Shown here: piece by piece, positions 5,169 through 8,115 of the stretch | Layout of the letters: each line of letters begins with the position of its first letter | Position numbering within the stretch: position 1 is the stretch's first letter | Assembly: GCA_027014125.1 (NCBI GenBank) | Contig: JALWEI010000017.1 | Span: 1-38,929 of the forward strand | Direction: 5' to 3' | Source of the DNA: Acidilobaceae archaeon | GTDB lineage: Archaea > Thermoproteota > Thermoprotei_A > Sulfolobales > Acidilobaceae | Length of the DNA stretch: 38,929 bases | Notes under the pieces: model-generated | What the model was told of the DNA's origin: nothing | Database searches by the model: none | The model's input: only the letters and a program-made list of their open reading frames with translations | Position numbers and translations under genes: made by a program

Positions 5169-5804
5169 GTGGATGTATTCGTACTCGACACCACAGCCAT
5201 CACAGAGGCTAGGATAAGGGCAACACTAGGCCTACAAACCATAGAAGAGGTGGTAAGACACGTAACCCCACTACTCAGAGACGCCCGCATAAAGGCAGGA
5301 GCCCGCTTCTACATGACACCCACAACATGGAACGAGCTCAGGAGAAGCCTAGTAGGAAACAACGTACCACTAGACCTAATCCAGGAACTAGCAACATGGA
5401 TCACAGTGAAAGCGCCCGACAAGCTCTCTCTAAAAATACCGGCAGCAATATTCTCAGAATACGTAGCAGACGTCAGGAGAAGACTCTACAAGGGACTAAG
5501 AGTAGCAGAATACGCAGCCAGAAGAGCGGCAAGAGACTGCGCAGGAGCCGGGAACGACTGCCTCAACAACATAATAAGAGACGTGAGAGACAAGTACAGG
5601 GAAGCAACAAGAAAAGGACTAGTAGACAGCATAGAAGACCTAGACACAATACTACTAGCCCTAGAACTAAAAGCAATAGTAGTAGCAAGCGACGAAGGCA
5701 TAACGAAACTAGCCCAACAACTAGGAGTAATACACATAGACCCCACAGACTTCATACAAGCACTTACAAGAATAGTAAAAGCCTTCACACAGGAAACAAA
5801 ATAA
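5169..5804 (+). CDS. HARP, RNA-free ribonuclease P (UPF0278, PIN-like)
   Basis: The 211-residue protein matches the Homolog of Aquifex RNase P family, formerly UPF0278 or RNA ligase partner. It begins MDVFVLDTT, then has FYMTPTTWNELRR, a central helical protrusion with LRVAEYAARRAARD, and the acidic C-terminal PIN motif DSIEDLD (about residues 153-159) with ASDEG near 176. HARP trims the 5' leader of pre-tRNA without an RNA subunit. The GTG start is supported by GGAGGT ten bases upstream and by the match of its first residues to the family. It sits 31 bases before a tRNA-Thr gene. Most archaea with HARP also keep RNA-based RNase P, so it may be accessory here. Confidence 0.9.
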   Translation: MDVFVLDTTAITEARIRATLGLQTIEEVVRHVTPLLRDARIKAGARFYMTPTTWNELRRSLVGNNVPLDLIQELATWITVKAPDKLSLKIPAAIFSEYVADVRRRLYKGLRVAEYAARRAARDCAGAGNDCLNNIIRDVRDKYREATRKGLVDSIEDLDTILLALELKAIVVASDEGITKLAQQLGVIHIDPTDFIQALTRIVKAFTQETK

Positions 5805-5835
5805 ACCCAACCCAGAGACAACGACAAACCAGGGA

Positions 5836-5947
5836 GCCGCCGTAGCTCAGCGGCAGAGCGCCGGCCTCGTACGGGCACCAGGCACACCGAAGCCGGCGCA
5901 CCCGAGAAAGCCGGTGGTCGCGGGTTCGAATCCCGCCGGCGGCTCCA
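5836..5947 (+). tRNA. tRNA-Thr (CGT), intron-containing
   Basis: The acceptor GCCGCCG pairs with CGGCGGC, followed by discriminator T and an encoded CCA. The D stem is GCTC/GAGC, the T arm is GCGGG-TTCGAAT-CCCGC, and the anticodon stem CCGGC pairs with GCCGG across an intron. The loop reads CT-CGT-A, then the intron, then A, giving anticodon CGT (threonine). Discriminator U fits archaeal tRNA-Thr. Confidence 0.95.
5872..5908 (+). other. 37-nt tRNA-Thr intron with bulge-helix-bulge
   Basis: The intron lies at the canonical 37/38 position. CTCG of the exon (5866-5869) pairs with CGAG of the intron (5903-5906), forming the 4-bp central helix. The two 3-nt bulges are TA/C on the 5' side and AA/A on the 3' side, the standard substrate of the archaeal splicing endonuclease. 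Confidence 0.9.
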
Positions 5948-5989
5948 ACACATAAAGCCCCCATCAATATATACTATCAGCCAGATAGG

Positions 5990-7297
5990 GTGCAAAAAGT
6001 GAGGGTAACAGTAGCAAACTTTAAGTCAATATCAGAACTAGACATGAAGCTAGAAGACCTGACAATACTAATAGGACCCCCCTCCAGCGGTAAAAGCAAT
6101 ATTCTAGAGGCACTAGCGACTATGGGATATACAATAAAAACATTAATAGATCCCTATATAGAAGGATATAGTATAAAAGATAAAATATATATAGGAAATA
6201 TAAATAAATATATAAGAGGAGTAGTATGCAGAGATTTAATCAATAAGTTTTATGGAAGAAATAGTGCGGTTATAGAAGTAGATTATAATATATCCAGAGT
6301 AGTGTGTGGTGACGATCCAAATGTAGTACAGATATCACTCGCGTTGCAGGACTCCATATTACATAAAATAAAGGCAAGAATAGCGAGGCCGGATTTAGCA
6401 GCAAAACTAGACTTAGAGAATGTTGGAACTAGTGATATAAATAGTGAGAGATCAATTATATCATTAATATTATCATTATTATTGAATCTAGATAATATTA
6501 GTGTAATAACAGATCCATTTAAAGTAGAAGAGTCTAAGGTAGTTAGAATACCGCCTGGAAGAATTTCGGTAGTAGTTCCTAGACTATATGGTTTTGATAG
6601 GCTTCATGCTATCAATAATATTATAAGGGGAAAGACGGGGGCATTGTATCCAGTTAGTTATTTGGAAGAAAGTGCATTAAACTTATCAAGAATACTATAC
6701 GTAAATACAGGTATTCAAGAAGATATAAATACAATTCTAGAAGACTTTAGTGGAGTCAGAGTGATGCCGCTAAGTGATGGCAGACTAGCGTTTATTGACA
6801 GGAATAAGGAGGTGGGTCCAACAAGTATTAGCGATACGGTATTAAGGATGCTCTATGGATACACTGCACTGTTAGCCTCTAAACCAAAAACAATCACAAT
6901 CGAAAAAATAATGGCCCTTGATGAAAATGAAAAGACGCAGGTCCCGATCACACTAGAAATCGTACCGTTGATCATGCTTGAAGAGCCCGAGGCCCACATG
7001 TACCCGGCCGCGTTCTATAATTTAGCAGAGGCGGTAGCAGAGTCTATATCAATAGGCAACAAGGTAATGATAACTACACACAGTGGAAGATTAGCGCAAA
7101 TATTATGGGATCATATACTTAAGAAGCGTTATAGGGCCATAGTATATTATGTGCATCGTGGAGAAGACGGTAATACACGCGCCTACAAGGTTAACATGAA
7201 ATTACTAGCCGAATATATAGAAGATCTAGATTTAATTGTAAACGAACCACCCGATAAAATAGATCAGATGCTAAAAGATGGTATACTAGTAAGCTAG
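5990..7297 (+). CDS. AAA/ABC-type ATPase (OLD/RecF-like), candidate defence ATPase
   Basis: A 435-residue ATPase. It begins with the typical VTVANFKSISELD strand, followed by a Walker A loop GPPSSGKS at residues 29-36. Near residue 325 are a Walker B stretch with LIMLEEPEAHMYP and then the switch MITTHSGRL. This order is that of overcoming-lysogenization-defect and related SMC/RecF-like ATPases. No Toprim domain is fused at the C-terminus. Base composition is far more AT-rich than the flanking core genes, with ATA/TTA codons, so it was probably acquired. A TATATAC box about 20 bases upstream of the GTG suggests a leaderless message. It forms a pair with the next gene, between two tRNA genes. 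Confidence 0.8.
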   Translation: MQKVRVTVANFKSISELDMKLEDLTILIGPPSSGKSNILEALATMGYTIKTLIDPYIEGYSIKDKIYIGNINKYIRGVVCRDLINKFYGRNSAVIEVDYNISRVVCGDDPNVVQISLALQDSILHKIKARIARPDLAAKLDLENVGTSDINSERSIISLILSLLLNLDNISVITDPFKVEESKVVRIPPGRISVVVPRLYGFDRLHAINNIIRGKTGALYPVSYLEESALNLSRILYVNTGIQEDINTILEDFSGVRVMPLSDGRLAFIDRNKEVGPTSISDTVLRMLYGYTALLASKPKTITIEKIMALDENEKTQVPITLEIVPLIMLEEPEAHMYPAAFYNLAEAVAESISIGNKVMITTHSGRLAQILWDHILKKRYRAIVYYVHRGEDGNTRAYKVNMKLLAEYIEDLDLIVNEPPDKIDQMLKDGILVS

Positions 7298-7335
7298 TAA
7301 ACGTGTATACTATTATACTGTTACAGGTGGATACT

Positions 7336-7923
7336 ATGGACTTTAAGGAAAGGCCCATATACTATGCTGAATGCTGGCTAAACTATACTCTACTATACCT
7401 ACTTATGAAGGTACATTTAGGAGTACAAAGAAAACCCAGCCACTGTAGTGGCATGACGGAGTGCCTTAGAACCGCAAAGAGAGTAATTGAGAAATATAGT
7501 AGTAATAACTCTACAAAGATACTATTAATAGATCAGGAGGAAGCGGAAGAACATAGAATAATGTTATCATCATTTATCAATAAATTTAAATGTAGTAATT
7601 CTTGCAATAAAAAATCAAACAAAAATTATAATAAATATATTAGGATTTATAAGTGTGATGGAGGTTTAATTATTATAACTTTAAAAGGGCCGCCTGAAGA
7701 CGCTATCCTTCCTAATCTAGATCCAGAGATAAAATCTGCGTTGAAGAACCCTGATTCAAAAAAGAAATTCAAACAAAGTAAGTTACGTAGGAGTGTTGGC
7801 TTAATCGAATCCATGTTACTCAGAGAAGGGTTTGATTGTAGGGGGTTTAGTGACGTTGTATATAGGGGGCTTTGCCTGTTATACAAGGAGATTGAGAGGG
7901 TCGTTAGTGGTTGTATTGGTTAG
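7336..7923 (+). CDS. Small partner of the OLD-like ATPase, possibly Toprim-like
   Basis: The protein is about 195 residues, AT-rich like the ATPase before it, and ends three bases from the 3' end of the convergent tRNA-His. The frame is open from 7303. I choose the ATG at 7336 because AGGTGG lies five bases upstream. I see an early glutamate in YYAECWLN, a strand followed by acids in KILLIDQEE, and GPPEDAIL after a predicted strand. This order (Glu, then D-x-E, then E-D) weakly resembles compact Toprim domains such as DUF3226 or OLD nucleases. It is suggestive only; the protein has no motif I can assign with certainty. The middle is rich in Asn, Lys and Cys. Confidence 0.6.
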   Translation: MDFKERPIYYAECWLNYTLLYLLMKVHLGVQRKPSHCSGMTECLRTAKRVIEKYSSNNSTKILLIDQEEAEEHRIMLSSFINKFKCSNSCNKKSNKNYNKYIRIYKCDGGLIIITLKGPPEDAILPNLDPEIKSALKNPDSKKKFKQSKLRRSVGLIESMLLREGFDCRGFSDVVYRGLCLLYKEIERVVSGCIG

Positions 7924-7925
7924 TG

Positions 7926-8004
7926 TGGGGCCCGGGCCGGGATTTGAACCCGGGACCTCCGGATCCACAGTCCGGCGCTCTAACCAGGCTGAGCTACCCG
8001 GGCC
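7926..8004 (-). tRNA. tRNA-His (GTG)
   Basis: On the minus strand the acceptor GCCCGGG pairs with CCCGGGC, with an extra encoded G at position -1 as expected for tRNA-His, discriminator C, and encoded CCA. The anticodon loop CTGTGGA between CCGGA and TCCGG gives GTG. The T arm is CCGGG-TTCAAAT-CCCGG. There is no intron. Confidence 0.96.
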
Positions 8005-8115
8005 ATGCCTGGTCGCCAGGGTAGATCCTCATCGCCCCTCACTGGGGGCTCGTGGGCCGGGCCCCAGCACCGTTAGGAGGGCTTGGGTCTGGGTGGGTTT
8101 TTATTGTTGTTGGTG
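8005..8115 (-). other. Structured spacer between rps27e and tRNA-His
   Basis: This 111-bp gap is GC-rich and contains two hairpin-forming stretches on the minus strand: CTGGGG pairing with CCCCAG around 8041-8068, and CCTGG-CGA-CCAGG at 8007-8019. An AATAAAAACC near 8096-8105 could be a TATA box, which would give tRNA-His a leader of about 70 nt. A GATGAGG resembles a box C, but no box D is present, so I do not call a C/D RNA. Confidence 0.3.

Follow-up and report, generated by a model that had tools for sequence, protein, structure and literature searches.

Split OLD-like systems have been characterised in bacteria. The one to which the locus described below comes closest is PARIS (AriA plus AriB, a class 4 OLD system), where an AAA_15/AAA_21 ABC ATPase is encoded beside a separate small effector gene. 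AriA keeps AriB inactive and activates it upon sensing a viral protein (PMC12409363), and the system is called from an AAA_15 match of at least 32 bits or an AAA_21 match of at least 27 bits, together with an adjacent DUF4435 match of at least 27 bits (PMC9122126). In OLD nucleases and in Gabija GajA an ATPase of the same superfamily is fused to a Toprim domain, and Gabija calls for the UvrD-like helicase GajB directly downstream. Two other kinds of pair, HEC-01 (an ATPase with a DUF4276-like protein) and an ATPase with a DUF3226-like protein, likewise set an OLD-like ATPase beside a small acidic partner. In archaea the role of OLD proteins was stated as unknown before the work on Cran1 (a 2025 paper, PMC12796447), a class 5 OLD protein of Thermoproteota with an OLD-type ATPase and a fused Toprim domain, which is conserved in Sulfolobales and apparently essential.

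The cassette examined here has the look of an archaeal equivalent of PARIS and similar two-gene antiviral systems of bacteria. It lies on a 38.9-kb contig, analysed whole and called the window below, from an archaeal genome of 1.82 Mb. An earlier note on this DNA had placed an AT-rich ATPase gene and a small gene between tRNA-Thr and tRNA-His. Both frames are indeed open there, with 435 and 206 codons (Table 1), and the motifs that it had read from them (GPPSSGKS, EEPEAHMYP, ECW, IDQEE and PPEDAIL) are all present, the acids that it singled out being among the most conserved columns of the family alignment. GC content is 35.7% in the 1,934-bp two-gene stretch versus 55.8% in its flanks, approximately the lowest value for any stretch of equal length in the window.

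Table 1. Coordinates of the cassette genes, the flanking tRNA genes and frameshifted relatives of the small gene
Feature	Position	Strand	Remarks
tRNA-Thr(CGU), intron of about 37 nt	5836..5944	+	Rfam RF00005; left edge of the AT-rich island
OLD-like ABC ATPase (AAA_15/AAA_21)	5990..7297	+	435 aa from GTG 5990 or 432 aa from GTG 5999
Small acidic-site protein	7303..7923	+	206 aa from GTG 7303; likely start ATG 7336 (195 aa)
tRNA-His(GUG)	7926..8003	-	3' end abuts the small gene
Frameshifted small genes beside an open ATPase gene	L046:3914-4439, L067:4466-4944, L068:4289-4654

In the ATPase, Walker A (GPPSSGKS), Walker B (IMLEEPEAHMYP) and the H-loop (TTHSG) are all intact. Pfam gives AAA_15 at 58.2 bits and AAA_21 at 58 bits, both above the cut-off and both past the thresholds used for the PARIS ATPase. 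The best PADLOC matches are HEC-01A, AriA and NsnB, with the GajA and Old profiles matching as well; among PDB sequences the OLD structure 6p74 (E = 1e-11), GajA (E about 4e-4) and PtuA are matched. Pfam, PADLOC and PDB thus agree on the OLD-type ABC ATPase domain of the OLD family nucleases. The fused C-terminal Toprim domain is absent: the frame stops about 70 residues past the H-loop, roughly where the Toprim would begin in OLD nucleases and GajA, and unlike these fused proteins the cassette consists of two polypeptides, of which the second is only a candidate Toprim. Gabija's helicase is missing also, its place being taken by the 206-aa ORF and then tRNA-His, and no recurrent helicase was seen among the neighbours examined. 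Searching the viral collection returned one distant ATPase, in a 632-aa ORF of a viral contig.

Translation of the small gene probably starts at the ATG rather than at the upstream GTG, because its nearest homologues have 193-194 aa and because residues 1-14 of the 206-aa reading nearly all have very low model confidence. Its product had been described as outside any nameable family, and it has no match to a named family in Pfam, PADLOC, NCBIfam or PHROGs. Sequence searches of the PDB with the protein and its profiles gave chance matches only, and no homologues were found in phage, plasmid and viral collections. No DUF4435 appeared in its Pfam search or among the matches of 25 family members, and a search of 101 Thermoproteota genomes found the domain in none. 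The cassette would work most like PARIS but lacks the DUF4435 protein by which PARIS is recognised; it differs further in that no sequence link of the small protein to AriB was shown and no fusion form was seen.

Iterated searches led to a very divergent family of small proteins across Thermoproteota, in 34 genomes. The named relatives are metagenome-assembled genomes of Acidilobaceae and Desulfurococcales. Within the host family most members are long (about 185-215 aa); elsewhere short ones (about 140-170 aa) prevail. The motifs of the window protein are ECWLN (E23, N27), IDQE (D77, E79) and PPED (E132). Across an alignment of 25 proteins D77 and E79 never vary, and conservation amounts to at least 90% at E23, C24, N27 and G50; of the 23 rows long enough to include the third acid, in the E132 column (PPED or PNIEE), 22 have E there and one has D. 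Matches in three genomes (G006, G143 and G185) were set aside; judged by reading, their sequences resemble those of replication factor C, an RtcA-like protein and a methyltransferase, with no ATPase gene adjacent to any of them.

An ATPase gene lies directly upstream on the same strand in 32 of the 34 genomes with a family member (13, the window included, then 16 and 3 from successive surveys). One unpaired match (G073) is cut by a contig end and the other (G037) is a relic that stands without a partner, its frame broken and the E of motif I changed to K; among testable loci the ATPase is therefore present in 32 of 33, the exception being this relic. Intergenic gaps run from -35 to +78 nt (22 pairs measured). 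Within the 60 nearest genomes, matches to the ATPase and to the small protein fall in the same genomes. The one weak small-protein match without an ATPase in that set (G045) contains several stops and was taken as spurious. Pairwise divergence of the two proteins is correlated (rho 0.73, exceeded by 0 of 5000 permutations); shared descent adds to this value, which therefore indicates common travel rather than direct contact. The ATPase and the small protein are a conserved two-gene unit and not chance neighbours.

We compared the small protein with the Toprim pattern, a beta-alpha fold in which E follows strand 1 and DxD follows strand 3. For the window protein AF2 predicts (pLDDT 90, pTM 0.86) the topology b1(E23)-a1-b2-a2-b3(D77xE79)-a3-b4-b5-a(E132), such that E23 follows strand 1, D77xE79 ends strand 3 and E132 starts a later helix. 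In the model, motif order and placement of the acids would fit a Toprim, and E23 and D77 stand 54 residues apart, a spacing shared with the first OLD-Toprim sequence aligned. Deviations are the missing glycine of the 'EG' motif and ExxxN in place of ExxxD. Foldseek gave no significant match for the window model, OLD C-terminal regions standing at ranks 2, 4, 10, 13 and 15 (E 0.1-0.34, TM-score 0.31-0.36). For a short family member (AF2 pLDDT 93.6) the 50 best matches included no Toprim, and against BFVD nothing was significant. Comparison by hhalign with archaeal OLD-Toprims and with DUF3226-like and DUF4276-like neighbour proteins stayed below 1% probability; as a control, the OLD-Toprim profile picked up the DUF4276-like protein with 73% probability and, weakly, the DUF3226-like one. 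The small protein therefore shows no detectable profile similarity to the Toprim superfamily (OLD-Toprim, DUF3226, DUF4276), and the small proteins of HEC-01 and of the DUF3226-like pairs are not detectably homologous to it. Strand order and acid placement agree with a Toprim, one of the folds with which the earlier note had proposed a comparison, but significance was reached neither by Foldseek nor by hhalign. The identity of the small protein as a Toprim nuclease is not established.

We tentatively read the cassette as most likely a split PARIS/OLD-like antiviral system with an ATPase sensor and a small-protein effector, the two roles being assigned by analogy with PARIS. The ABC ATPase, of OLD/AriA type, would sense infection while holding the small protein, and would then allow its action as a metal-dependent effector. 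That effector is probably a nuclease, and E23, N27, D77, E79 and E132 may make up its site on a fold that is Rossmann-like and compatible with Toprim. A complex of the two proteins, the sensing step, binding of metal, cleavage of nucleic acid and a role against viruses are all inferred. Of the split OLD-like functions proposed in the earlier note, the conserved unit of ATPase and small protein and its defence-like behaviour stand, and the Toprim half does not yet; given its ATPase partner and its acidic residues, the best guess is still that the small protein works as in a split OLD.

Much of the same evidence bears on a reading that keeps the architecture and the defence role but makes the small protein a Rossmann-like effector of a new family outside the Toprims, either some other metal nuclease or a non-nuclease enzyme. 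It draws on the lack of significant Foldseek and profile matches despite two confident models, and on the failure of hhalign where known Toprim families find each other. Against it, the motif order, the E-to-DxE spacing and the glutamate at a helix start resemble those of OLD, DUF3226 and DUF4276 proteins, and established Toprim effectors may themselves be weakly detectable, AriB having been matched with E = 0.02 (PMC9122126). We hold this reading to be possible but somewhat doubtful; its wider form, a Thermoproteota-wide antiviral pair in which an OLD-type ATPase would control a new non-Toprim enzyme family marked by ECxxN, DxE and PxE, we hold to be rather unlikely.

A patchy distribution speaks for the split PARIS/OLD-like reading. 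Of 118 high-quality genomes in the order, 9 carry the cassette, and within the genus it was found in two of four (G000 and G003), with no match in G001 and G002, drafts that are only 78% and 90% complete. Several copies are decayed: in G011 the ATPase is frameshifted and the small gene has a stop, and in G156 both genes are broken. In three further genomes (G070, G282 and G394) a frameshift interrupts the small gene beside an open ATPase frame, and no locus was seen with the ATPase alone broken. Such frameshifts may be errors of the draft genomes, or else mark an effector that was costly to keep and was selectively lost. The second alternative would suit a selfish cassette of toxin-antitoxin type, in which the ATPase restrains a toxic small protein and there is no dedicated antiviral trigger. 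The cases are only three, however, from draft genomes with possible sequencing errors, and in PARIS deleting either gene is non-toxic, which excludes a toxin-antitoxin arrangement there (PMC9122126); we regard such a cassette as improbable here.

Genomic company is mixed. In G394 a second OLD-like pair, an AAA_15 ATPase with a DUF3226-like protein (L068:2441-4128), adjoins the cassette on the opposite strand, and in G070 a HEC-01A-like ATPase with a DUF4276-like small protein does so (L046:1569-3157). Near the cassette of G285 a HEPN domain is joined to a nucleotidyltransferase domain (L066:3339-4076). Most of the remaining neighbours examined have housekeeping functions and do not form defence islands. 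In 14 of 17 loci the pair has a lower GC content than the flanking DNA. Patchiness, decay, low GC and the second ATPase pairs at two loci fit a mobile defence cassette, as circumstantial evidence. The neighbours would also suit a chromosomal ATPase module with a housekeeping role, on the model of Cran1, an archaeal OLD ATPase-nuclease of cell-cycle progression that is undeletable and apparently not antiviral (PMC12796447). But Cran1 has its Toprim domain fused and is conserved across Sulfolobales, whereas the cassette is split, patchy even within one genus, rare in the order and decayed in several copies, and we consider a housekeeping role very unlikely. That two unrelated AT-rich genes became neighbours by chance, as the want of a named partner family for either might suggest, is refuted by the survey, with 32 adjacent occurrences across the phylum and correlated divergence, and keeps practically no probability.

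PARIS and related pairs already display the architecture of an OLD-like ATPase with a separate small effector. What appears to be new is the effector family, missing as it is from all four family libraries, and its archaeal range; no published description of the family was found in the part of the literature that was searched. With such an unclassified effector, an archaeal cassette would make it possible to ask directly, for example in Sulfolobales hosts, whether effectors gated by an ATPase protect archaea. The family alignment can serve as a model for annotating proteins now missed by Pfam, NCBIfam, PADLOC and PHROGs.

The position of the pair exactly between two tRNA genes is a local and not a general feature of the cassette; no tRNA neighbour reached the Rfam cut-off in 30 related loci. 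Rfam scores tRNA-Thr at 56.6 bits (cut-off 29), and the anticodon loop (CUCGU..) and the intron are legible in the Rfam alignment. The default scan of ARAGORN overlooked this gene, and its intron-aware run reported a tRNA-Ser. No att direct repeats of at least 14 bp were found within window positions 5801-8100, and no second copy of the tRNA-His 3' half was seen near the pair in the window. In G003, of the same genus, the 3' half of tRNA-His recurs as an exact 43-bp copy 58 bp past the stop of the related pair. Such a half-copy is the expected trace of an element integrating into tRNA-His. In the ancestor of the genus, therefore, the pair probably already adjoined the 3' end of tRNA-His, or else it came in via the tRNA-His site. 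Beyond the half-copy (L015:3709-3750 and onward) follow ORFs of unknown type, a probable integrated element at tRNA-His. On the other side of the cassette, a gene for a PIN_5 domain ribonuclease (window positions 5169-5804, Pfam E = 4e-66) stands just 5' of tRNA-Thr and is conserved in genomes of the same genus, and in G002 a subtilase-like gene follows the same tRNA-Thr.
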